From contig NZ_BDCO01000002.1 of assembly GCF_001613545.1 (NCBI RefSeq), forward strand, positions 3,658,001 to 3,722,000: 64,000 nt of DNA, read 5' to 3'. Shown piece after piece: positions 13,035 to 31,197 of this stretch; position 1 is the first letter of the stretch, and each line of letters starts with the position of its first letter. The notes under the pieces are model-generated. The model saw only the letters and a list, made by a program, of their open reading frames with translations. It was not told where the DNA came from and did no database searches. Made by a program: the position numbers and the translations under genes. This DNA is from Terrimicrobium sacchariphilum. Its GTDB lineage: Bacteria > Verrucomicrobiota > Verrucomicrobiia > Chthoniobacterales > Terrimicrobiaceae.

Positions 13035-14075
13035 TTACTTCTTGTCTTTGTCCAGCGCTTCGCGCACCTCAGCTTCGATTTTAGCGTAAAGCTCGGGGTC
13101 ATTCTTGAGCGCCTCCTTGGCGGCATCGCGTCCCTGCGCAAGCTGTGTGCCCTTGTAGCTGAGCCAGGAACCACGTTTCTCGAGGACATTTTTCTCGATG
13201 GCGAGATCGAGAAGCGAGCCGGTGCTCGAGATGCCCTCGTTGTACATGATATCAAACTCCGCCTCGGCAAACGGCGGAGCCACCTTGTTCTTCACCACCT
13301 TCACCTTCGTGCGGTTGCCCGTCACGGTGCCGTCGCTGGTCTTGATCGCGCCGATGCGGCGGATGTCGATGCGAACGCTGGAATAAAACTTGAGCGCCTT
13401 ACCGCCCGGCGTCGTCTCGGGGTTGCCAAACATCACGCCGATTTTTTCGCGGATCTGGTTCGTGAACACGCAGACCGTCTGGGCTTTGGAGATAAAGGCC
13501 GTGAGCTTGCGCAGGGCATTGCTCATCAAGCGCGCCTGAGCACCGACGACGGCGTCGCCGATCTCGCCTTCCAGTTCCGATTTTGTCACCAGTGCGGCGA
13601 CGGAGTCGAGGACGATAACGTCGAGCGCATTGGAACGCACGAGCGTTTCACAGATGCGGAGAGCCTCTTCACCCGAGCTCGGCTGGGAAACGAGGAGATC
13701 GTCGAGGTTCACGCCTAGCTTGCGGGCATAGGACGGGTCGAGCGCGTGCTCGACGTCGATGAAGCCGGCCAGGCCGCCGCGCTTCTGCGCCTGGGCGATG
13801 GCGGTGAGAGTCAGAGTCGTTTTGCCAGAGCTTTCCGGTCCGTAGATTTCCACGATTCGGCCACGCGGAAAGCCTCCCACGCCGAGGGCGCGGTCGATCA
13901 AAATGTTTCCGGTGGGAATGACCTCCACCGCAGAGGTGCTGGCATCCCCGAGGCGACGGATCGCCTCGCTGCCGTAATCTTTTTCAATCTGCTGGATGGC
14001 AAGCTCCAGGTTTTTGTTGCGCAGCGCTGCGGCTTTGTCATCAGTCGGAGAGGAGACGTCGTCGGTCTTGGCCAT
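13035..14075 (-). CDS. recA: Recombinase A
   Basis: 346 residues from ATG 14075 (MAKTDD...), chosen over an in-frame TTG at 14114 that falls in the promoter region. RecA binds single-stranded DNA with ATP, drives strand exchange and activates LexA self-cleavage. Walker A GPESSGKT near residue 80, VLDSVAALV (Walker B), the [12 protein letters not shown] loop and the [28 protein letters not shown] stretch split across loop L2 are all intact. C-terminus is acidic/basic (ALDKDKK). Followed by pal and an aminotransferase; preceded by the rpsD terminator. Confidence 0.98.
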
Positions 14076-14086
14076 AGTGTCGCCCG

Positions 14087-14114
14087 ACTTTATCGGGATA
14101 TTTCCCGATATCAA
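14087..14114 (-). promoter_or_regulatory. Candidate recA promoter with overlapping palindromic operator
   Basis: A perfect 8-bp inverted repeat TATCGGGA-N4-TCCCGATA occupies 14091-14110, just upstream of recA. On the - strand it fills the 16-base space between a possible -35 TTGATA (14109-14114) and -10 TAAAGT (14087-14092). That is where an SOS repressor would sit. It does not match the CTGT-N8-ACAG or GAAC-N4-GTTC boxes. A start from this promoter would leave almost no leader, so the -10/-35 assignment is tentative. Confidence 0.45.
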
Positions 14115-14153
14115 GCTCCCATCCCGGAAAAATCCTTATGGCATCACTTTCCA

Positions 14154-14177
14154 CATTCAGCCCCTTTTCGCTGAATG
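14154..14177. repeat. Spaced palindrome CATTCAGC-N8-GCTGAATG upstream of recA
   Basis: Perfect 8-bp arms (14154-14161 and 14170-14177) with an 8-base pyrimidine-rich spacer, about 80 bases before the recA start. Could be a second regulator site or a hairpin; no T run follows, so it is not a terminator. Confidence 0.4.
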
Positions 14178-14253
14178 ATGATTCCGGGGTTTCAGGTACG
14201 ATCAAGAACCCTGCCTGGAGTCGCGTAAAGCTTCCCGGGTTCGCAAGAATACA

Positions 14254-14283
14254 AAAAAGCCCGCTGTTGCCAGCGGGCTTTTT
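14254..14283. terminator. Terminator of the ribosomal cluster, after rpsD
   Basis: AAAAAGCCCGCTG (14254-14266) and CAGCGGGCTTTTT (14271-14283) form a 13-bp stem with loop TTGC, with A/T runs on both sides. It lies 30 bases after the rpsD stop and separates the ribosomal cluster from recA. Confidence 0.92.
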
Positions 14284-14300
14284 CAAAGGAGAGGACTTTG

Positions 14301-14324
14301 ACTCCGCTAGAAACTAGCGGGAGT
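14301..14324 (-). repeat. Inverted repeat across the rpsD stop codon
   Basis: ACTCCGCTAG (14301-14310) and CTAGCGGGAGT (14314-14324) pair with one bulge and a loop of AAA; the rpsD TAG (14314-14316) lies in the stem. It may be part of the 3' end structure of the mRNA. Confidence 0.35.
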
Positions 14325-14925
14325 AAAGTTCGACAACGAGCTGCTCGTTGACGATCGGATTGATGTCGTCGCGGGTCGGGATGCGAACGACCGTGCCGAC
14401 GAGAGCGTCCTTGTCGACCTGGAGCCAGTCCGGAGTCGCGTGAGCGGAGGTCTGGTCGATAGCCTTGACGGCGAGGCGCTTGGAGCGCTCGGCCGGCTTC
14501 ACAGCCACCTTGTCACCCGGCTTGACGTTCATCGACGAAGCATTGGTCTTGCGGCCGTTGACGGTCACGTGCCCATGCGAAACGAGCTGACGCGCTGCGC
14601 GGAGTGTCTTGGCAAAGCCGAGCTTCTGCACCACGTTATCGAGGCGGGTCTCGAGGAGCTGGAGCAGGATCTCACCGGTGACGCCGCGCTTGCTGGAAGC
14701 CAGCGCGAAGTAACGGCGGAACTGGCGCTCGAGTACGCCGTACTGGAAGCGGAGCTTCTGCTTCTCGGCGAGAGCGAGTGCGTAGTCGGAGAGCTTGCGA
14801 CGCGAGCCCTTGGGGCCATGCTGTCCCGGCGGGTAGCTCTTGCGTTCAAATGCCTTCGGAGAACCGTGGATGAGCGTGCCGTAGCGGCGGCTGACCTTGG
14901 TCTTGGGTCCTGTATAACGAGCCAT
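14314..14925 (-). CDS. rpsD: 30S ribosomal protein S4
   Basis: 203 residues. Primary 16S rRNA-binding protein at the body of the small subunit. MARYTGPKTKVSRRYG at the start and the S4 RNA-binding domain ETRLDNVVQKLGFAKTLRAARQLVSHGHVTVNG in the middle are clear. No Cys4 zinc site, so it is the zinc-free type. It is the last gene of the cluster; rpoA and rplQ, which usually follow, are missing here and a terminator comes instead. Confidence 0.98.
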   Translation of the reverse strand: MARYTGPKTKVSRRYGTLIHGSPKAFERKSYPPGQHGPKGSRRKLSDYALALAEKQKLRFQYGVLERQFRRYFALASSKRGVTGEILLQLLETRLDNVVQKLGFAKTLRAARQLVSHGHVTVNGRKTNASSMNVKPGDKVAVKPAERSKRLAVKAIDQTSAHATPDWLQVDKDALVGTVVRIPTRDDINPIVNEQLVVELYSR

Positions 14926-14948: not shown

Positions 14949-15638
14949 TCAGACGCGACGCTGTTTCGGCGGGCGGCAACCGTTGTGAGGCACCGGGGTC
15001 ACGTCACGGATGACAGTGATCTCGAGGCCGATGGCCTGCATGGCGCGGACGGCGGATTCACGACCGGCACCGGGGCCCTTGACGCGGACTTCCACTTCCT
15101 TGAGGCCGTGTCCCATCGCCTGCTTGCAGGCGTCCTGGGCGACCATCTGGGCGGCGTAGGCCGTGCTCTTGCGGGAGCCCTTGAAGCCACACTTGCCAGC
15201 GCTGGACCAGCCGATGACACCGCCACGGAGGTCCGTGATGCTGACGATCGTGTTGTTAAAGCTGGCCTGCACATGGGCGATGCCCTGGGTGACGTTCTTG
15301 CTTCCCTTGGCCTTGACGACCTTGATCGGCTCGATCGTGTCGTCGAGAGAGAGGCTCACGCTGACGGGAGCGGCGGCTTCCTTCTTCTCCTCCTTCTTGG
15401 CCTTCTTGGAAGCTTTGGGCTTGGCTTCCTTAGGGGCTGCAGCAGCGGGTGCGGCAGCCGGAGCCTCGGCGCCAGCGGCGGGCGCGACGGCTTCAGCAGG
15501 AGCAGCGGCCTCAACAGGCGCGGCGGCTTCCGTGGCGGGAGTTTCTTTTTTCTTGGGGGCCGCCTTCGGCTTCTTCTCGGCGGCGGGCTTTGCGTCTCCT
15601 TCAGGAGCCGCAGGCGTAGGGTTCAATTCGTCAGCCAT
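14949..15638 (-). CDS. rpsK: 30S ribosomal protein S11 with a long N-terminal Ala/Lys/Pro extension
   Basis: 229 residues against about 125-130 for normal S11. The S11 core runs from about residue 111 ([20 protein letters not shown]) to the end ([13 protein letters not shown]). Residues 1-108 are low-complexity: Ala/Pro-rich with Lys clusters and some Glu. The ATG at 15638 lies 11 bases after rpsM and no convincing start is seen close to the core, so the extension is probably translated. S11 sits at the platform of the 30S subunit near the mRNA exit. Confidence 0.95.
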
Positions 15639-17875: not shown

Positions 17876-19381
17876 TTACCGTCGGAAGGCGATGGAAATC
17901 GTAATACCAGCGATAACGAGCACTCCGATAGCAGCGTAGATCAGTACGAGCTTGCTGTCGTCGAGCACCTGGCCCGATCCCATGCGGGGGCGAGAATCGC
18001 GAGCCCCACGGATCTTGCCTTTGCGCAGGAATCCATCGTAATGGCGCTGCAGCAGGTGCGTTTCGATCTGGCGCATCGTATCAAGCACGACGCCAACGAT
18101 AATCAGTACACCTGTGCCGCCGAAGAATTGGGCGGTCATGTACGGCACGCGCAGCCACTGGGACAGGAGCTGCGGCAACACCGCAATGATCGTGAGGAAG
18201 ATGGCTCCGGCAAACGTCAACCGCGACATCGTGAAGTCGAGGAAGTCGGCTGTCGGCTTGCCCGGACGCACGCCCGGGATAAAACCACCATATTTCTTGA
18301 GGTCATCAGCGATCTGGACCGGCTGGAACTGCGTAGCCACCCAGAAATAGCTGAAGAAGAAAATCATCGCTCCGAAGAGCACGTAATGAAGCCATCCCAC
18401 AGCCAGCATGTTGGCGAGCCATTGCGCAGTCGGATTCTGCGGGAACGCCATGTTGATGATGGTCGACGGGAAGAGCAGGATGGCCTGCGCGAAGATGATC
18501 GGCATGACACCCGCGTAGTTGACCTTGAGCGGCATGTACTGCGTCTGGCCGCCGTAGACTTTGCGACCCACTACTCGCTTGGCGTACTGGATGCTGATCT
18601 TTCGCTGGGCTTGCGTCACCGCAATGACCGAGGCGATGACAAAGACGAGGAACAAACACAGGAGCACCAGTACGATTGGGCTCACATTGGCCTGCTGCGC
18701 CGCACCCGAGGGCACGAACGTACGCCAGGCAAACACGAGGCCGGCCGGGAGCTGCGCCAGGATGCCCACCGTGATGATAAGCGAGACGCCATTGCCGATG
18801 CCTCGCTCCGTGATCTGGTCACCCAGCCACATGAGGAACATCGTGCCTGCCGTAAGGGTCAGGATCGTAATGACCTGAAACTGCCAGCCCGGCACTGGAA
18901 CCAGCGCCATACCGAGGCGGTTCATCGTATCGACGATGCCAGGCAGGAAGGGATTGGCCTGGGGATTCTCCAGCGATTTCGCAAGGAGAAAGCCCTGAAA
19001 CACACAGAGCACGATCGTCGCATAACGCGTGTACTGCATGATTTTGCGGCGGCCGCCGTCCTCTCGAGACAACTTGCCGAGCTGCGGGATCACCGCAGTC
19101 AGGAGCTGCAACATGATGGACGCACTGATGTACGGCATCACACCGAGCGAGAAGATGGCGCAATGCGCCAGGGAACCACCGCTGAACAGGTTGAACAATG
19201 CCGCAATGCCGCCCGCGGGATTGGATCCCGCGTGCTCGAACCATTGCCGCAGCACCTCTGCATTCACACCGGGCGTCGTGATGGCGGAACCAGCACGAAT
19301 GATAATGATCATCGCCAGCGTGAAAAGAACACGCTGACGAAGTTCCGGAATCTTAAAGATGTTGGTGAAGGCAGAGATCAT
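17876..19381 (-). CDS. secY: Protein translocase subunit SecY
   Basis: 501 residues with about ten membrane helices; slightly long for SecY. Forms the protein-conducting channel with SecE and SecG. Starts MISAFTNIFKIPELRQRVLF; visible marks are GVMPYISASIMLQLL, RYATIVL, the KIRGARDSRPRMGSG loop near the end and a Lys/Arg-rich cytoplasmic loop with VVGRKVYGGQTQYMPLK. It follows rplO directly, as in most bacteria. Confidence 0.98.
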   Translation of the reverse strand: MISAFTNIFKIPELRQRVLFTLAMIIIIRAGSAITTPGVNAEVLRQWFEHAGSNPAGGIAALFNLFSGGSLAHCAIFSLGVMPYISASIMLQLLTAVIPQLGKLSREDGGRRKIMQYTRYATIVLCVFQGFLLAKSLENPQANPFLPGIVDTMNRLGMALVPVPGWQFQVITILTLTAGTMFLMWLGDQITERGIGNGVSLIITVGILAQLPAGLVFAWRTFVPSGAAQQANVSPIVLVLLCLFLVFVIASVIAVTQAQRKISIQYAKRVVGRKVYGGQTQYMPLKVNYAGVMPIIFAQAILLFPSTIINMAFPQNPTAQWLANMLAVGWLHYVLFGAMIFFFSYFWVATQFQPVQIADDLKKYGGFIPGVRPGKPTADFLDFTMSRLTFAGAIFLTIIAVLPQLLSQWLRVPYMTAQFFGGTGVLIIVGVVLDTMRQIETHLLQRHYDGFLRKGKIRGARDSRPRMGSGQVLDDSKLVLIYAAIGVLVIAGITISIAFRR

Positions 19382-19411: not shown

Positions 19412-19885
19412 CTACTTCCCGCTAGCCGTTTCCGGCTTCCGAGTCAACGTCACCGAGCCGCCTGCCTTCTCAATCTTCTCTTTGGCAGAGGCGCTGATGC
19501 TGTCCACTTCGAGGTGGAATTTTTTCGTGGTCTCGCCACGGCCGAGGACTTTCACGCCGTCGAACGTGCCCTTGATGAGGCCCGAACCGCGGAGAAGCTT
19601 CTCGTTGATGGCGGCGCCGTCTTCAAAGCGCTTCTCGAGGTCGTCGATATTGACGACACCGTAGACCGTCTTGAAAGCGGTGTTGTTAAAGCCACGCTTG
19701 GCGAGCTGACGGTAGAGGGGCATCTGGCCGCCCTCGAAACCGAGGCGGATGCTGCCACCGGAACGGGCCTTCTGACCCTTGTGGCCCTTGCCGGATGTTT
19801 TACCTTTTCCGGAGCTTTCGCCGATACCAAGACGCTTGCGACGGTGCTTGGCACCAGGATTGGGTTTAAGATCGTGCAGTCTCAT
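19412..19885 (-). CDS. rplO: 50S ribosomal protein L15
   Basis: 157 residues. Begins MRLHDLKPNPGAKHRRKRLGIG, with the Gly/Lys-rich GKTSGKGHKGQKARSGG stretch that reaches into the 50S core. It directly follows rpsE with a 3-base gap; rpmD (L30), normally between them, is absent. Confidence 0.98.
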   Translation of the reverse strand: MRLHDLKPNPGAKHRRKRLGIGESSGKGKTSGKGHKGQKARSGGSIRLGFEGGQMPLYRQLAKRGFNNTAFKTVYGVVNIDDLEKRFEDGAAINEKLLRGSGLIKGTFDGVKVLGRGETTKKFHLEVDSISASAKEKIEKAGGSVTLTRKPETASGK

Positions 19886-19888
19886 GGA

Positions 19889-20440
19889 TTAAGCAGCGAC
19901 GGGTTGAGCAGCCTTGGGCTTGATCTCCTTGCCGCGGATTTTGAAGATGGCTTCTTTCGGACGAAGCGCGGTGAGCGCCTCGAGAGTGGCCTTGGAAACG
20001 TTGGACGGGTTGCTGGAGCCGAGGGACTTCGCGAGAACGTCGCGGATGCCTACGGCCTCGATGACCGCACGCACAGCGCCACCGGCGATGATGCCGGTAC
20101 CGGGCGAGGCGGGACGAAGCAGCACTCGACCGCCGCCGAATTCACCGATCACCTCATGCGGGATCGTGTTTTCGTGCACAGCGATGTCGAGCATGTGCTT
20201 CTTGGCCGACTCGGTCGCCTTGCGAATCGCTTCGCTGACCTCATTGGCCTTGCCGAAGCCGATACCCACGCGGCCCTTGTGGTTTCCAGAAACGATGAGC
20301 GCGCTGAAGCTGAAGCGGCGTCCGCCCTTCACGACCTTGGCGCAGCGGTTAATGAAAACCACCTTTTCTGTCGTCTCCTTGGGCTCCTTGTCGACGTTGT
20401 CGTTGGAGCGATGATTGTTGTGTTTTCTTGGAGGAGCCAT
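19889..20440 (-). CDS. rpsE: 30S ribosomal protein S5
   Basis: 183 residues, normal length. Helps decoding accuracy and has a double-stranded RNA-binding fold. [38 protein letters not shown] and [19 protein letters not shown] are typical. The N-terminus is rich in Asn, His and Lys. Six bases after rplR. Confidence 0.98.
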
Positions 20441-21358: not shown

Positions 21359-21751
21359 TTACCAGATGTAGGCGAGGAGCTCCCCACCGACGTTTTGTTT
21401 GCGAGCTTCCTGACCGGTGAGAATCCCACGCGAGGTCGAAAGGACGGCGATGCCCATACCGCCGAGGACGCGGGGCACTTCCGTGGCTCCGACATAACGG
21501 CGGAGACCCGGCTTGCTGACGCGCTTCAGGCCGGCGATGGCGGCCGTCTTGTTGACAAACTTGTTGCGAATGCGGAGCTGCGGACGGCCCTTCTCCGGGG
21601 TCTCGAGTTCAAAGCCCTCGATATATCCTTCCTTCTGGAGGATACGGGCGATCTCACTCTTGAGCTTGGAGTAAGGAACCAGGAATTCCGACTTGCGGGC
21701 GCTGGAAGCGTTGCGCAAGCGGGTGAGCATATCTGCGATGGGATCGGTCAT
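21359..21751 (-). CDS. rpsH: 30S ribosomal protein S8
   Basis: 130 residues, normal. MTDPIADMLTRLRNA and the C-terminal GGMGIAVLSTSRGILTGQEARKQNVGGELLAYIW pattern (core STSRGILTGQEA) identify it. A 16S central-domain binder and, in E. coli, the spc operon autoregulator. It directly follows rplE: rpsN is missing between them. Confidence 0.98.
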   Translation of the reverse strand: MTDPIADMLTRLRNASSARKSEFLVPYSKLKSEIARILQKEGYIEGFELETPEKGRPQLRIRNKFVNKTAAIAGLKRVSKPGLRRYVGATEVPRVLGGMGIAVLSTSRGILTGQEARKQNVGGELLAYIW

Positions 21752-21767
21752 TTATGTGTAGCAGTAG

Positions 21768-22382
21768 TTAGGCAGCCGTGGCTTCCTCTTGCTGCTCCTC
21801 GGTTTTGCGCACAGGAGCCGGTTTCTTCTTGTCGGAGAAGGGCATGCCCAGCTCCGTCAGAAGCGACTTGGCTTCCTCGTTCGTGCGCGCGGTTGTGACG
21901 ATGGTGATGTCAAAACCGATGTTGCGTTTGATTTTGTCGAGTTCGACTTCAGGGAAAATGGACTGGTCAGCGACGCCGAGCGTGTAGTTGCCATTGCCGT
22001 CGAAGGCTTTGGTCGACACACCACGAAAGTCACGGATGCGCGGGAGCGACATCTTGATGAGACGCTCGAGGAACTCGTACATGGTGCGGCCGCGAAGAGT
22101 CACCTTCGCTCCGATCGCCTGACCCTGGCGCAGCTTGAAGTTCGCAATGCTCTTTTTGGAGAGCGTGGCGACCGGGCGCTGGCCGGTGATGAGGGCGATT
22201 TCGGACTTGGCGATTTCCAGCGCCTCTTTGCTGTCGGCGCCTGCGCCCACGGAACTGTTGACCACCACCTTCTCGATCTTGGGGATCTGGTGAATGTTCT
22301 TGTAACCGTGCTTCTCGCGCAAAGCGGGCACGACGCGCGTCTTGTATTCTGTGTAAAGCTCGGGATCGAGTTGGGTAGCCAT
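21768..22382 (-). CDS. rplE: 50S ribosomal protein L5
   Basis: 204 residues, about 25 more than usual because of a C-terminal Lys/Pro then Gln/Glu-rich tail (KKPAPVRKTEEQQEEATAA). The core has KIEKVVVNSSVGAG, GQRPVATLSKKSIANFKLR and RDFRGVSTKAFDGNGNY. Binds 5S rRNA in the central protuberance. Confidence 0.98.
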   Translation of the reverse strand: MATQLDPELYTEYKTRVVPALREKHGYKNIHQIPKIEKVVVNSSVGAGADSKEALEIAKSEIALITGQRPVATLSKKSIANFKLRQGQAIGAKVTLRGRTMYEFLERLIKMSLPRIRDFRGVSTKAFDGNGNYTLGVADQSIFPEVELDKIKRNIGFDITIVTTARTNEEAKSLLTELGMPFSDKKKPAPVRKTEEQQEEATAA

Positions 22383-23994: not shown

Positions 23995-24759
23995 TTAAGC
24001 GTTGGCGGGTGCGTTCTGAGCAGGAGCCGATGCGGCGGGCGCTGCGTCGGCGTTATTACGACGACCGCGGGGTCCGCGTTCGCGGCGAGGAGCCGGCTGC
24101 TCGGCCTGGCCGTCCTGCTGCTGGTCTTCTGGGCGTTCCTGCTTTTTGCAGACCCAGCACTTGATGCCGATCTTGCCGGCGACGGTGTTGGCTTCCGTGA
24201 AGCCGTAGTCGATCGGCTGGCGCAAGGTATGAAGCGGGATCTTGCCTTCGCGGTACCATTCGGTACGTGCGATTTCCGCACCGCCAAGGCGGCCGGAGCA
24301 GCGAATCTTGATGCCGAGCGCGCCCTGTTCCATGGCGAGCTGCACAGCGCGCTTCATGGCGCGGCGGAAAGAGATACGGCGCTCGAGCTGCGAGGCGACG
24401 TTTTCCGCGACGAGCTGGGCGTCGGTGTCAGGTGTCTTGATCTCAACGATGTCGATCTTCACCTGCTTGCCACCGGCGAGACGGGAAATCTCCTCCGTCA
24501 TCTTCTCAATCTCGGAACCCTTGCGGCCGATGACCACACCCGGGCGAGCCGTGTGGATGGTCACGCGCAGGCTGTTCCAGGCGCGTTCGATGACGATGCG
24601 GGCCACAGCGGCCTGACGGAGCTTCTTCTTAAGAAACTCACGGATCTTGCCGTCCGCAAAGAGGTAGTCGGCGAAATCCTTGCGCGAGGCGTACCAGCGC
24701 GACGACCAGTCGCGGCTGATCGGAAGGCGGAAGCCGATTGGATTGACTTTCTGTCCCAT
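23995..24759 (-). CDS. rpsC: 30S ribosomal protein S3
   Basis: 254 residues. [20 protein letters not shown] at the start, the KH domain with [13 protein letters not shown] (GXXG loop) and [24 protein letters not shown] later. Forms the mRNA entry pore. The last 45 residues or so are a low-complexity tail rich in Gln, Pro, Arg and Ala, longer than in most S3. Two bases after rplV. Confidence 0.98.
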
Positions 24760-24761
24760 GG

Positions 24762-25247
24762 TTATTCCTTGGTTTCGGTTGCCGTCGTCTCAGGAGCGAC
24801 GGTCTCGGTAGCAGCCGATTTTGCGGCGGCGGTGGTCTTCTTCTTGGCGCCGGCCTTCTTGGCGGCGGGTTTCTTGGATTTTTTCGCGGCCTTGTCCTCG
24901 CGGCGCTTGATCTCCACCTCGTCGGTCAGGACGATGCGGATGTGGCTCGTACGCTTGCGGATCGGGCCTGCGCTGCCGCGGGCCTTCGGCTGGAAACGCT
25001 TGAAGGTCGGTCCTTCGCCCACAACGGCTTCCTGGACGACCAGATTGGCAACATTGAGGTTGTTATTGTTCTCGGCGTTCGCAACCGCGCTCGAGAGCGT
25101 CTTGAAGATAAGCTCAGCGGCCTTCTTGGGCACAAAGCGGAGCAAGTCCAGAGCGTCCGTGGCCGGAAGACCCTGAATTTCCCGCGTGACCTCGCGAGCC
25201 TTGAAGGCCGAGATCCGCGCATTGCGGTAGATCGATTTAACCTGCAT
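24762..25247 (-). CDS. rplV: 50S ribosomal protein L22 with Lys/Ala-rich tail
   Basis: 161 residues against about 110 usual. Core to about residue 118: [59 protein letters not shown] (beta-hairpin that lines the exit tunnel). From about 120 on the protein is Lys/Ala then Thr/Glu-rich. Its start is 30 bases after the inserted exported-protein gene rather than after rpsS. Confidence 0.97.
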
Positions 25248-25277
25248 TGTTGTCTTTGTTATTTGGTTTCTCGCCGT

Positions 25278-26087
25278 CTACTGCCGGGCGTCCACCTTGA
25301 GGCGGTCGCCGGTTTTGATCGGCTCTTTCTCCGATGCGAGACTCTGAATGATGGCTCCACTGATGCGATCGCGTACGTCGATGACGCGCACTTCGCCGAT
25401 TACCTTGTTGTCCCTCCAGATCTGGAAGGGCATTCCGATTTTCACCCCCTGCTTTTCGCCGATGTTGGCGACGACGAGAGAAAGGTCCTCTTTCACATCC
25501 AGGACCATTCCATCATTGAGGGTGGCTTCGACCGCACTGGCTTTTACCGCCGCCGGAGTGCCGAGCACTTCGTTGGTCTTCCGCAATTCGGTTTCAACCG
25601 TCATGCGGATCTGCGGATCGATTTGTTCGGTGCTCTTCAGGAGCACCTGTACGGCTTCGGTCAGTCTTACCAGCTGGTTGACCGCGTTTTCGTTTTGCTG
25701 CTTGAGCAAGCGAAGGTCGCGGACAGCGGAAAGCAGGCGCTGCTCGACTTTGCTTTGATCCTTTTCGGCACCCGGGACACCCAGGGCCTCGAGTTTCATT
25801 GCGAGGTCGGCAGACTGGCGCTTGAACATCTCGGCCTCCGCGTTTGCGATGGCCAGGCTGTCCGTCAGCGATTTGACGCTCGATCGCAGCAGGATCACTT
25901 TCTCCTGCAGGCTTTCGTCGCCACTATCACTGGAGCTGTTCTCTTCGCTCGTGGGCACGGTTATCGTGACCCCCTGCGCGAGGAGAATACCACTATCAGA
26001 GTCTGTCAAAGATCGGCTGCTCTGTGCCTCCAGCCATGCGGCCGGGAGGAGAGCGATAAGTCCCGCCGCTATCGCAGCGAGTCTCAT
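25278..26087 (-). CDS. Exported coiled-coil protein of unknown function inside the S10 operon
   Basis: 269 residues. A clean Sec signal peptide (residues 1-21, ending WLEA before QS) is followed by a Ser/Asp/Glu-rich linker, a long coiled coil (about 60-175) and a C-terminal all-beta looking domain (about 186-266) with NDGMVLDVKEDLSLVV, IGMPFQIWRDNKVIGE and PIKTGDRL. The layout recalls MreC-type or other periplasmic coiled-coil/beta proteins, but I cannot assign a family. It starts two bases after rpsS and precedes rplV by 30 bases, so it must be transcribed with ribosomal genes. Not a ribosomal protein. Confidence 0.82.
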   Translation of the reverse strand: MRLAAIAAGLIALLPAAWLEAQSSRSLTDSDSGILLAQGVTITVPTSEENSSSDSGDESLQEKVILLRSSVKSLTDSLAIANAEAEMFKRQSADLAMKLEALGVPGAEKDQSKVEQRLLSAVRDLRLLKQQNENAVNQLVRLTEAVQVLLKSTEQIDPQIRMTVETELRKTNEVLGTPAAVKASAVEATLNDGMVLDVKEDLSLVVANIGEKQGVKIGMPFQIWRDNKVIGEVRVIDVRDRISGAIIQSLASEKEPIKTGDRLKVDARQ

Positions 26088-26089
26088 TG

Positions 26090-26368
26090 TTACTTGGTCA
26101 CTTTGGCGGTGTGAGAACCGTGTTTCTTAAAGATTCGAGTCGGGGAAAACTCACCCAACTTGTGCCCGACCATGTTTTCGGTGACGAACACAGGGATGAA
26201 GGTCTTGCCGTTGTGCACGTTGAAGGTGTGGCCCACGAAGTCGGGGGTCACCGTGCTGCGACGCGACCAGGTCTTGATCGGCTTCTTGGCGCCGGAGTCA
26301 TTCATCCGGTCGATTTTATCGAGGAGCTTCCACTCCACGTAGGGGCCTTTTTTGAGCGAACGTGCCAT
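26090..26368 (-). CDS. rpsS: 30S ribosomal protein S19
   Basis: 92 residues, normal. [19 protein letters not shown] and the signature [31 protein letters not shown] (core [18 protein letters not shown]). Sits in the head of the 30S with S13. Two bases after rplB. Confidence 0.98.
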
Positions 26369-26370
26369 GG

Positions 26371-27216
26371 TTACTTAGCTTTTGCTTTGCGCCGCTGGAC
26401 GATGAAGCGGTCGGAGTTCTTGTGCTTGCGACGGGTCTTGAAGCCCTTGGCCAGCTGGCCCCAGGGGCTGACAGGATGGTGACGTCCGCCACCGCCCTTG
26501 CTCTTGCCCTGGCCACCACCCATGGGGTGATCGACGGGGTTCATGACCATACCGCGGACATGCGGACGGCGGCCGAGCCAACGGGAGCGACCGGCCTTGC
26601 CGCTCGACACGTTCATGTGGTCGGTGTTGCCGACCTGTCCGATCGTGGCGTAGCAGTCTTCGTTGATCTTGCGGATCTCACCGGAAGCCAGCTTGATGAG
26701 GGCGAAGCCTGCCTCGCGGTTGGCGAGGATGGCCTGGGCGCCTGCGCTGCGGATCATCTGAGCGCCGCGACCCGGAGTGAGCTCAACATTGTGAATGGCC
26801 GTACCGAGCGGGATCACACGCAGAGGGAGCGCATTGCCGACCGCCGGATCTGCCTTTTCACCAGCGCTCACCTTGGCGCCAACCAAGAGGCCGGCAGGAG
26901 CGAGGATGTAGGCCTTCTCGCCATCCGTATACTGAAGAAGGGCGATGCGGGCGGAGCGGTTGGGATCGTACTCGATCGCGATGACATCAGCGATGATGTC
27001 GCGCTTCTTGCGCTTGAAATCGATAACGCGGTACTTGCGCTTGTGGCCACCGCCGCGGTGACGCGAGGTCATGCGGCCGTTGTTGTTGCGTCCGCCGGAC
27101 TTCTTCAGGGGTTCCAGGAGAGACTTCTCCGGGGTATCCTTCGTGATCTCGGCGAAGTCCGGGAGCGCCTTGAAGCGGCTCGCGGGCGTAAGGGGTCGAA
27201 AGGTCTTGAGTGCCAT
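26371..27216 (-). CDS. rplB: 50S ribosomal protein L2
   Basis: 281 residues. Needed for subunit joining and peptidyl transfer. [25 protein letters not shown] (core [18 protein letters not shown]) and the C-terminal [23 protein letters not shown] stretch with the conserved His are present. Fourteen bases after rplW. Confidence 0.98.
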
Positions 27217-27230
27217 GGCTGTGTGTCTCC

Positions 27231-27515
27231 TTAGACGAGGTCGAGCTTCTCGCCCTCCTTGAGGGTTACGATCGCCTTCTTCCAGTTGGCACGACGGCCG
27301 AAGCTGGCAGTGCGCTCGCGCTTCTTCTTACCGGCGAAGTTCGCGGTATTGACGTTGACAACCGTCTTTTTGAAGAGGACTTCCACCGCTCGCTTGATCT
27401 CGAGCTTGTTGGCCCGGGGAGCGACGCGGAACACGTACTGGTTCTCCTTTTCGGAAAGCAGGGTCGCCTTCTCGGTCAGGAGGACCGTTTGCAGATGGTC
27501 AAAGGGTTCGTTCAT
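27231..27515 (-). CDS. rplW: 50S ribosomal protein L23
   Basis: 94 residues. Tunnel-exit docking site for trigger factor and [44 protein letters not shown] and the extended basic loop [21 protein letters not shown]. Overlaps the rplD stop by one base. Confidence 0.97.
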
Positions 27516-28129
27516 TACGCGAGCCTTTCGGAGAGGGTGGTGAGCGCTTCCTTCGTCACGATGATCTTGTCGAACGCGAGGAGCTGCTCGGTATTGACGT
27601 CCAGGGCGCGAACCAGCTGGGCGGTGCGGACGTTGCGGGCCGCGAGGAAGGTGTTTTCGTCGAAGCCATTGCCAATGACGAGCGTCTTGCGGGCGTCTTT
27701 GGCGCTTTCAGCCACGAGGGCGAGGAACTTCTTGGTCTTCGGCTCGGCGACAACGAAGGCGTCGGTCACCAGCACGTCGCCGGCGAGGATGCGCTCGCTG
27801 AGAGCCTTGCGGAAGGCGAGGACCTTCACCTTCTTGGGAGTCTTCTTCGAGTAGTCGCGGGGATGCGGACCGAAGGCAACACCGCCGCCCACCCACACGG
27901 GGGAGGACTTGTAACCGGCGCGGGCGCGTCCGGTTCCCTTCTGGCGCCAGGGCTTCGCGCCGCTCAGGGCGACGTCGGCCTTGGTCTTGGTGCTGGCAGT
28001 ACCGCGGCGGCGGTTGGCACGCATGGCGACCACGACATCGTGGACAGCCTGGCGGCCCTTTGCCTCTTCGGTGATGAGCTCGATATTGGCCTTCTTGGCC
28101 TCTTCAGCAGTAAATACAGTGGCGCTCAT
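27515..28129 (-). CDS. rplD: 50S ribosomal protein L4
   Basis: 204 residues. [38 protein letters not shown]-type loop (here [19 protein letters not shown]) and [14 protein letters not shown] are typical. Lines the exit tunnel; in E. coli it also represses the S10 operon by binding its leader, relevant to the long leader here. Three bases after rplC. Confidence 0.98.
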
Positions 28130-28132
28130 GGC

Positions 28133-28780
28133 TTAGCTCTTGGCTGGGGCTTTCTTTTTCTTGGCCGGGCGCACGATGACATTCGTGCCCTTGGCTCCGG
28201 GAATCGCGCCGCTCACGAGGATGACACCGTCTTCCTCGCGGACCTGCAGGACTCGCAGGTTCTGAACCGTGACACGCTCGTCACCCATGTGACCAGGCAT
28301 GCCCATGTTCTTCCAAACACGACCGGGAGTGGAGCGGTTACCGATGGCACCGTTACGACGATGCATCATGGAACCGTGGCTCGCGGGCTGTCCGGCGAAA
28401 TTGTGCTTCTTGACGACGCCCTGGAAGCCTTTGCCCTTGGACTGGCCGATGACGTCGACCCACTGTCCAACCTCAAAGGTGCCGAGGCCGAGATCCACGC
28501 TCTCCGGAGCGGTCTCACCTTCAGCGAGGCGAAATTCGCGAATGAACTTCTTCGCGGTCGAGGAGGATTTGGCGAAGTGCCCGGTCTGCGCCTTGCTGAC
28601 GCGATGGGCTTTCTGGTCGCCGAAACCGACCTGAATGGCGTTGTAGCCGTCTTTCTCCGCGGTCTTGACCTGGAGAATGCGGTTGCCACCAGCTTCGATG
28701 ACGGTGGCGGTGGTGATGCGGCCCTTGTCGTCATAGACGCGGGTCATCCCAAGTTTTTTTCCTAAAAGTCCGATGCTCAT
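28133..28780 (-). CDS. rplC: 50S ribosomal protein L3
   Basis: 215 residues. [20 protein letters not shown] at the start and the signature [18 protein letters not shown]...[27 protein letters not shown]. One of the first 50S assembly proteins, near the peptidyl-transferase centre. Eight bases after rpsJ. Confidence 0.98.
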
Positions 28781-28788
28781 GGCGACGA

Positions 28789-29106
28789 TCAGATTTTGAT
28801 GGTGATATCAACGCCGGCCGGGAGATTGAGCTTACGCAGCTCGTCTACGGTCTTGGCGGTGGGTTCGACGATATCCAGCAGGCGCTTGTGCGTGCGGATC
28901 TCAAATTGATCCATGGACTTCTTGTCCACGTGGGGGGAGCGGTTGACAGTGAATTTCTCGATCCGGGTCGGGAGCGGAATAGGGCCTGTCACCTTCGAGC
29001 CCGTGCGCTTGGCTGTCTCGACGATTTCGGCCGCCGAGGCGTCCAGGATTCGATAATCAAACGCCTTGAGGCGGATGCGGATGCGTTGACCGGCAGGAGC
29101 TGACAT
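28789..29106 (-). CDS. rpsJ: 30S ribosomal protein S10
   Basis: 105 residues. [20 protein letters not shown] and [24 protein letters not shown] (core [19 protein letters not shown]) identify it; also the NusE subunit of antitermination complexes. First gene of the cluster; tuf and fusA do not precede it. Confidence 0.98.
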
Positions 29107-30042
29107 AATCTGATAAAGAACAGTTGAGGGCGGTCCCCTTGGTTAGGTGGTTAGGAAATTCGTTTTCGTCGATGCACGCGCGATCCGGCCCAGCAGGACA
29201 TCATCTTTTCGATATGGACGCGCGTTTGCATTGCTTGGTTAGGCCTGCACACCCTCGGAAAGGCGTCAGGGGACAAAAAAAGCACTCTGAGGTGCTCTAC
29301 TCATTCCCCCGTCTGTGTGCGGGAGGGAAGAAACTATTGATACGCCCAAGGTAAGCAAGCCTTATTTTGGAATTTCTTGGGGAATTTTTAAGGGGGAATG
29401 GGGGAGAAATGAGAAAACTCTGGTTTTGCGCTTCCCGCTCGCTGCCTTCACCGCGGATGAGCGATAGGCAAAACGATCTCGACTCCATAGGTTTACAACC
29501 CTCAGAGGGGACGCGACGCGAAGTCGCAGCCGGGATTCCAATATCCTTGAGATACTGAACAACGCGGAGCCATTCCCACCGGAACAATCGAGCTTCTCGT
29601 GACACGATATCGTGCTCGGAACCTGCTAGAATTTCCCACGATCACGGATTCCTTACGCGTTTCTGTCGCAGGACCACTCAAGCAGGAAGAGGATTTCTCT
29701 CCACATCGCGCAAGCCGACAGCGGTCGGGTTTCTCGATACGAACGTCTTTCGGGGCTCCTATGACAAAGCTATTCGCAAACCAGCCCGACCAATTCCTCC
29801 CCCTGGCGGGACATGCACTGGGCAGCAGTTGACCGCGAGGCTGCGCCTGCTTACGGGAGAGACTCTCTGGTTCCAGGTCCCGACGGCCGAAGAGGCGATT
29901 CTCACCCTGCCTCGAGATCGGAGGACACGGTTCGAATCGCACTGGCAGATGGCATAAACGCTATCACCAGCCAAGGCCTCGCGGCCGTCGCCTCGCGTAC
30001 TATCCCGGGGGATCGCAGGCGAGCACCGACCGCTGCCAATGC
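29107..30042. other. Gene-poor stretch upstream of rpsJ
   Basis: About 0.94 kb without a gene I can support. The part next to rpsJ should hold the promoter and leader of the ribosomal cluster; it has repeated TTGGTTAGG words (about 29138 and 29234) and a weak terminator-like hairpin. The half next to the desaturase has only ORFs of odd composition. One + strand frame ending at 29957 reads LRLLTGETLWFQVP and PRDRRTRFESHW, which looks protein-like but has no start codon. Confidence 0.6.
29274..29296 (-). terminator. Possible attenuator or terminator in the rpsJ leader
   Basis: On the - strand AGCAC-CTCAGA-GTGCT (5-bp stem) is followed by seven T. It lies about 170 bases before rpsJ and points towards it. 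The stem is short. It could be an attenuator of the S10 leader or the end of an upstream transcript from the desaturase side. Confidence 0.35.
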
Positions 30043-31197
30043 TTAAGCCGCAGCCGTGCCGCCAAAAACGATGCGGTGCGCACTCATCCACTCGCCCAAG
30101 GCCTCGCGGAGCTCGGAGGACGCCTGTGCGAGTTCACGCTTGAGCTGGCGGCGCTGGCGACGGGAGATCTCGTGACGGCGCTCCTTGGCAGCACGGTACT
30201 CCGTGAGGCGCTGTTCCCACTGGGCCAGAGCGTCATGCATCTGCTGCTGGGCGGAGTGCAGCATCGTCTGCAAGGACTCGGAAAGGGGAGCCGGGTGACT
30301 CTCAAGAGCCGCCGCGATACGGCGCTGCTGCTCGGCGATCTGGGCTTTGAGAATCTTTTCTTCCGGTACGGTGCGCAGATTGCGCACGAGACCGAGCTTG
30401 TGCAGCAACCAGATCGACCATTTCGTCGGGTCAAACTGCCACGGCTTTACGCCATTGCGGTAGTCGTACTGAAACTCGTGGTGAAAATTATGGTAGCCCT
30501 CGCCAAAGGTGAAGAGAGCCATGAGGAAACTGTCGCGCGCGGTGCAGTTCGTCGAGTACGGACGATCACCGATCCAATGGCACAACGAGTTGATGCAAAA
30601 GGTCATGTGATGAACGAAAACCACACGTGCCACACCCGCCATGAGAAAGGCCCCGAGAGCCGCCGTGGGACCGCCCCAGAGGTAGCCAATGAGGGCCGGA
30701 AGACCGAAGCCCACTCCGAATGCCAGCGGCACGTAGTACTGGTGCTGCCACCAGGCGAGCTTGTCCTTCTGAAGGTCGCGCACCCAGGTCAGCGGCGTAT
30801 CCGGGCCGGTGCGAAAGAGAAGCCAGCCGATATGGGCGTGAAAGAAGCCCTTGGAAATATCGTACGGATCGTCATCGTGATCGACGAACTTGTGATGGCG
30901 GCGGTGGTCCGCCGACCAGCCGAGGGCGGAACCCTCGAAAGCGGCTGCGCCAAAGAGCAGGGTGAAGACCTTCACCGGCCACGAAGCGTTGAACGTGAGG
31001 TGCGAAAAAAGTCGATGATAGCCGAGCGTAATGCTCAAGCCGGTAGCAATGAAGAAGAAGAGGAACAACCCAAGCTGGAAGGCATCCACACCATGGCGCA
31101 TGATGTAAAGCGGCACGGCTGTGACGGTTGTGACAAAAGTCGAGATGAGAAACAGGCTGTTTGCCCACCGTACTTTTTCCCAGGGGATTCGTAGCAT
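30043..31197 (-). CDS. Membrane fatty acid (acyl-CoA type) desaturase
   Basis: 384 residues. Delta-9-type desaturase that puts a double bond into acyl chains using a di-iron centre, oxygen and electrons from a reductase. The three His boxes are intact: HRLFSH (61-66), HRRHH (98-102) and HNFHH (236-240). Hydrophobic segments at about 14-32, 41-59, 75-90 and 155-200 place it in the inner membrane. The last 110 residues or so are a charged coiled coil with no catalytic motif, an unusual addition. Head to head with the luxE-like gene. Confidence 0.92.
   Translation of the reverse strand: MLRIPWEKVRWANSLFLISTFVTTVTAVPLYIMRHGVDAFQLGLFLFFFIATGLSITLGYHRLFSHLTFNASWPVKVFTLLFGAAAFEGSALGWSADHRRHHKFVDHDDDPYDISKGFFHAHIGWLLFRTGPDTPLTWVRDLQKDKLAWWQHQYYVPLAFGVGFGLPALIGYLWGGPTAALGAFLMAGVARVVFVHHMTFCINSLCHWIGDRPYSTNCTARDSFLMALFTFGEGYHNFHHEFQYDYRNGVKPWQFDPTKWSIWLLHKLGLVRNLRTVPEEKILKAQIAEQQRRIAAALESHPAPLSESLQTMLHSAQQQMHDALAQWEQRLTEYRAAKERRHEISRRQRRQLKRELAQASSELREALGEWMSAHRIVFGGTAAA

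Follow-up and report, generated by a model that had tools for sequence, protein, structure and literature searches.

A gene for an exported-looking protein, referred to here as X, is located between the ribosomal protein genes rpsS and rplV of Terrimicrobium sacchariphilum. X is most readily interpreted as an inherited, Sec-exported envelope protein of the periplasm, probably structural, that would be made together with the ribosomal proteins and occurs in many lineages of the phylum; we give this reading a probability of roughly one half. A periplasmic structural role is proposed because the C-terminal domain of the protein leans towards those of FlgT and TsaP and because its N terminus is export-like. 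The initial annotation of this DNA had described a gene inserted at the rpsS-rplV junction and had named restriction to this strain as a finding that would refute it. The position proved to be real, but the gene is rather an old resident of the junction: a junction survey finds it in many lineages of the phylum, so that an observation made in a single genome now describes an arrangement that recurs within the phylum.

Within the window (the whole 64,000-nucleotide stretch of DNA analysed), X is an intact ORF with an ATG start codon on the minus strand (positions 25278-26087; 269 aa), and its identification draws on the ORF itself, its junctions, selection and orthologues. The start codon lies 2 nt past the stop codon of the upstream neighbour rpsS (26090-26368, minus strand), and the stop codon lies 30 nt ahead of the downstream neighbour rplV (24762-25247, minus strand), which is often kept beside X where rpsS is elsewhere. 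An intact gene two bases from rpsS, as originally described, is therefore borne out. In Escherichia coli, rpsS and rplV are adjacent. The genes around X, named by eye, are minus-strand ribosomal genes that begin with rpsJ (29106) and continue across the S10 and spc regions. Several other features of this part of the window, also named by eye, were recorded. In the spc region, the rplE-rpsH interval (21751-21768) is too small for rpsN, and the rpsE-rplO interval (19885-19889) is too small for rpmD. In the interval 13035-14925, recA (13035-14114) follows rpsD, and rpoA-rplQ, which come after rpsD in many bacteria, are absent from this place. The product of rpsK (14949-15638; 229 aa) has a long Ala/Lys/Pro-rich N-terminal extension, and those of rplV and rpsC carry charged or Ala-rich C-terminal extensions.

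X is 95-96% identical in two congeners, with dN/dS values of 0.07 and 0.14; the values against two more distant members of the family are 0.21 and 0.19, and the same comparisons give values between 0 and 0.15 for the flanking ribosomal genes. Judged by these ratios, X is a real protein gene under purifying selection and not a chance ORF; it is this selection that bears on whether the protein is made, the other refuting condition named at the outset. Its CAI, on a scale representing ribosomal gene usage, is 0.48, the lowest among the 31 genes measured; 19 ribosomal genes, the same ones that define the scale, have values of 0.60-0.79, and 11 other genes of the window have values of 0.50-0.63. 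From this codon usage, unlike that of the neighbours, it is probable that X is translated less per message than they are. A consensus scan of the region 24600-29700 detected no sigma-70-type promoter. Of terminator-like sites on the minus strand it detected two, one inside rpsC and the other upstream of rpsJ, and none in the rpsS-rplV interval. Rfam matched nothing in 24000-30100 at E values up to 0.5. Since no internal promoter was found and the gene has been kept in the operon, X is likely to be co-transcribed with the ribosomal genes.

The protein had been described as bearing a signal peptide, a coiled coil and a beta domain, and this is supported to the extent that it looks exported and combines a hydrophobic N-terminal segment with helices seen in prediction and a C-terminal domain that is conserved. 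Hydrophobicity at the N terminus is strong (Kyte-Doolittle mean of 2.7 for the best 12 residues, compared with 0.2-1.2 for the four flanking ribosomal proteins tried). Residues 1-22 (26022-26087, minus strand; residue 22 as the end was guessed by eye) resemble a Sec signal peptide, as judged by hydrophobicity alone. An AlphaFold2 model of the whole protein, for which the input consisted of three near-identical sequences only, predicted with low confidence (mean pLDDT of 47) helices at residues 56-102, 111-152 and 158-175. These delimit a helical, probably coiled-coil region (residues 56-175; 25563-25922, minus strand), and profile searches of X family members gave weak matches of the middle region to coiled-coil profiles. 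The C-terminal beta domain (residues 190-269; 25281-25520, minus strand) is common to long and short forms of the protein and, on sequence comparison, is the domain that defines the X family. Modelled alone, it reached a mean pLDDT of 65. Fold searches returned weak general barrels only (F1-ATPase and pyruvate kinase), with nothing above Z 3.8 or below E 0.17; the rows displayed include no entry for FlgT, TsaP or MreC, which carries no weight either way. We claim no fold for X, because the models are poor and the fold matches are weak and limited to general barrels.

The protein encoded in the window reaches no Pfam or NCBIfam cut-off. FlgT_C (PF16538) matches it weakly at residues 205-230 (18.4 bits; curated cut-off of 27), and matches of this profile were also detected in 18 of 24 members of alignment A1 (E up to 1) and in 13 of 29 members of alignment A3 (E up to 0.1), the best of those among family members having an E value of 1.1e-4. 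Up to an E value of 1, FlgT_C matches none of the 12 short forms scanned. The window protein gave no match to any further FlgT domain, and the gene of X, unlike that of FlgT, is in a ribosomal operon. A profile search of the PDB pointed to TsaP (PDB 3jc8), the LysM protein of the type IV pilus secretin, the C-terminal part of which can be aligned, in separate pieces, with the beta domain of X (whole-sequence E of 0.029; best piece alone, E of 1.8); most other rows of this search were coiled coils. Pfam gave no LysM match for the window protein up to an E value of 10. Both FlgT and TsaP belong to ring structures that surround envelope machines.

The initial annotation had likened the C-terminal domain to that of MreC, and a place for X in the cell-elongation machine would follow the same line. 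X has the same general layout as MreC (PF04085), i.e. a hydrophobic N terminus, a coiled coil and a beta domain, and weak MreC matches occur in a few members of the family (3 of 24 members of A1 in Pfam, best E of 0.055; best E in NCBIfam, 0.0091). PF04085 does not match the window protein at E up to 10. The genome also has its own MreC (L174), which scores above the Pfam cut-off and follows an ORF resembling MreB by eye; hhalign gives a probability of only 0.8% between it and the X family. This value led us to reject X as a relative of MreC. X is located in the S10 operon and not in an mre cluster, and the coiled coil is missing, judged by length, from the short forms. We therefore regard an MreC-like role as improbable. 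By sequence comparison, the C-terminal domain leans weakly to FlgT_C and TsaP and is closer to them than to MreC; the proposed check by remote homology and structure prediction thus provided this slight lean, while it spoke against MreC and yielded poor models.

One paralogue of X, a weak relative, is present in the same genome (G000:C2:2874637; L002:1405-2187). It has a hydrophobic, anchor-like N terminus, a middle part that is coiled-coil-like by eye and the same C-terminal domain (hhalign to that of X, 96.5%, E of 9.8e-10). It is located outside the ribosomal operon, with neither rpsS nor rplV in its 3.7-kb locus. Downstream of the paralogue come a small ORF that resembles a lipoprotein and a gene of glycosyltransferase type (both by eye), and weak second matches to X were seen in other genomes of the family (L029-L033).

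Among 138 mechanically chosen ORFs, a set that also contains some non-X ORFs and a small number that are duplicated, truncated by contig ends or mis-started, 121 have a hydrophobic N terminus (12-mer mean of 1.6 or more), and one member (L138) has, by eye, a lipobox-like cysteine there. Its position among ribosomal genes is all that would suggest that X is not exported but, despite its hydrophobic N terminus, binds the ribosome or serves in assembly. The signal-like or anchor-like N termini across the forms, the cysteine of L138 and the anchor-like N terminus of the paralogue encoded outside the operon argue against this, and we consider it the least probable of the readings discussed.

X matches were obtained in 25 of the 26 genomes of the family. 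In all 25 best-match loci X follows rpsS, and rplV comes next in 22, the contig ending first in the other three; two of these loci lie on the named contigs returned by a search for related loci, one from a Verrucomicrobia MAG and the other from Spartobacteria bacterium LR76. In the order, a search with the X sequence alone gave matches, paralogues among them, in 166 of the 197 genomes at E 0.01, and of the 17 loci checked (L034-L050) 16 have both flanks and one is cut by a contig end. Viral contigs gave no relative. Two 0.9-Mb single-contig genomes of the same order (L112 and L113) are without X. Their rpsS-rplV spacers (148 and 313 nt) are partly alike, and we rejected the possibility that they contain decayed copies of X, since they hold nothing recognisable as such.

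At the level of the class, 184 of the 286 genomes match alignment A1 at E 0.001, the weak matches including paralogues. X was located between rpsS and rplV in all 40 class stretches around strong matches, 10 of them belonging to the same order and the other 30 to 16 further families of the class; in one (L098) it was recognised by its ORF and not by tblastn. The matched loci of the family, the class and the other classes were picked by match, and hence show the place of X, not its frequency.

A separate pool of 133 genomes was considered on its own terms, composed of the 102 class genomes without a match and 31 weakly matching ones (E above about 1e-9) from outside the order; it excludes G049, G069, G078 and G085, which match weakly but belong to the order. 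The search for rpsS and rplV covered 80 of the 133 (49 of the 102 without a match and all 31 weak ones), and revealed rpsS in 77 and rplV in 76, with a measurable distance between the two matches in 76. This distance is below 400 nt in 58 genomes and 400 nt or more in 18. Twenty loci of this survey, mostly those with wide gaps, were read. In 15 of them (L116-L130, five of which are from genomes with gaps of 358-387 nt, among the 58) there is a short form of X: the ORFs span 108-185 aa, begin with a hydrophobic segment and retain the C-terminal domain, but in most cases leave no room for the helices. L115 carries a divergent form with a shorter middle part, and L114 and L131, read at the junction, have no clear X-like ORF; the remaining two are L112 and L113, with the spacers described above. 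When 12 of the 15 short forms were aligned, the resulting profile matched the long forms over residues 190-269 (hhalign 98.7%, E of 1.6e-16). As far as can be judged from these ORFs, the short forms show that the rod (the helical part) is dispensable. In many genomes, e.g. in f20 and f35, rpsS and rplV nearly touch, with no room for X; the gene is absent from the junction in many genomes, and hence is not universally needed.

In the phylum, 202 of the 288 genomes match alignment A3 at E 0.001, paralogues included. All 20 good-match stretches from other classes contain an X-like ORF directly before rplV, with rpsS upstream in 19; in the remaining one (L139) rpsS is elsewhere in the genome. The spacing between the ORF and rplV is 1-12 nt in 19 of the 20, the exception being L147, which was left out of this range as the scripted measurement used a wrong-frame ORF. 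The set from these stretches matched A3 with an hhalign value of 99.6% (E of 1.2e-24).

We also drew a match-independent sample of the outer classes (every second genome from G427 to G585, n=80), in which both rpsS and rplV were found in 72 genomes. The two genes are near each other in 24. Seven of these have 532-1131 nt between them, and in all seven an X match lies 19-115 nt before rplV; the other 17 have only 15-234 nt. In the remaining 48 of the 72 genomes the genes are apart (on different contigs or far along one), and the S10 operon looks broken at this junction, although part of these cases may reflect contig breakage in drafts; in G457, G481, G507 and G555 the two genes are far apart on one long contig. 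Among the matches listed, X is located 34-228 nt before rplV in at least 10 of the 48 split genomes. Reading of 19 split loci (L154-L172; four picked with a match already listed and 15 without one) revealed an X-like gene directly before rplV in 13, and in nine of the 15 picked without a listed match. The alignment of these loci, which included two ORFs that are probably not X (L165 and L169), matched A3 with an hhalign value of 98.9% (E of 2e-17) over 203 columns. From the split loci, which were read upstream of rplV, X seems to be tied to rplV more firmly than to rpsS.

A gene tree built from 92 X sequences, selected from 36 families, required 36 changes of family label, the minimum being 35, while 500 shuffles gave at least 66. 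When the sequences were grouped as the order, the rest of the class and those from outside the class, three changes were needed (minimum of two). A single branch separates 43 of the 44 order sequences, the exception being L027, and 13 of the 17 multi-member families are monophyletic (f1, f6, f38 and f71 are not). In the rooting used, the class is monophyletic (support of 0.73), and the order and the outer classes are not strictly so. The tree follows taxonomy and is most simply explained by vertical descent in which X was repeatedly lost or reduced.

The strongest rival to our interpretation is that X is an ordinary envelope protein gene that landed before rplV once and has stayed there, its co-expression with ribosomal genes having no role. 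The premise of this explanation is that gene order within the operon is hard to change, which would keep X in place; it also agrees with the absence of X from the junction in many families and in the two 0.9-Mb genomes, and with codon usage unlike that of the neighbours. The selection acting on the reading frame speaks against it, as does the persistence of X directly before rplV in 13 of the 19 split loci read, where rpsS is elsewhere. We regard it as possible, but doubtful.

A different role for the position is suggested by SecM, which reports export to secA. The synthesis and export of X on the polysome might gate rplV and the later genes, or tether the S10 message to the membrane; in the former case, export of the nascent chain from the S10 polysome would set the output of rplV and the genes downstream, and ribosomal-protein synthesis would sense the state of export or of the envelope. 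The export-like, hydrophobic N terminus and the place before rplV are constant in short and long forms, and X immediately precedes rplV in the 13 split loci mentioned above. Inspection nevertheless revealed no arrest-like sequence conserved at the C terminus; the final residues differ from class to class, the whole domain being conserved instead of an arrest motif, and X is missing in many genomes. Such sensing, in both its general form and as regulation of rplV output by the nascent chain, is in our judgement improbable. If true, it would constitute a built-in link from envelope capacity to ribosome production in many lineages of a phylum.

Under the preferred reading, of an inherited envelope protein, X would share the S10 operon transcript, and its translation would be coupled to that of rpsS and proceed, per message, more slowly than that of the neighbouring genes. 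The signal peptide would be removed, and the helices may form a rod or an oligomer in the periplasm. By analogy with rings around trans-envelope machines, the FlgT_C-like domain might dock onto another envelope component. Owing to the operon position, the dose of X would follow ribosome production, and hence the growth rate.

The spc ribosomal-protein operon carries secY (here the ORF 17876-19381, by eye), which, like X, is a membrane or envelope gene within an operon of ribosomal protein genes. SecY is a near-universal translocon subunit, whereas the distribution of X is patchy. Another lineage-specific conserved protein is the PVC signature protein CT421.2, of about 53 to over 80 aa (PMC3444138); it differs from X in length, and on length alone was set apart. 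In titles and abstract openings, with most subscription journals outside the scope of the search, we found no description of a verrucomicrobial gene located between rpsS and rplV. For Verrucomicrobium spinosum, a transposon screen counted 100 essential proteins of unknown function (PMC12283558). X provides a concrete gene with which to ask how bacteria match the growth of their envelope to the production of ribosomes.
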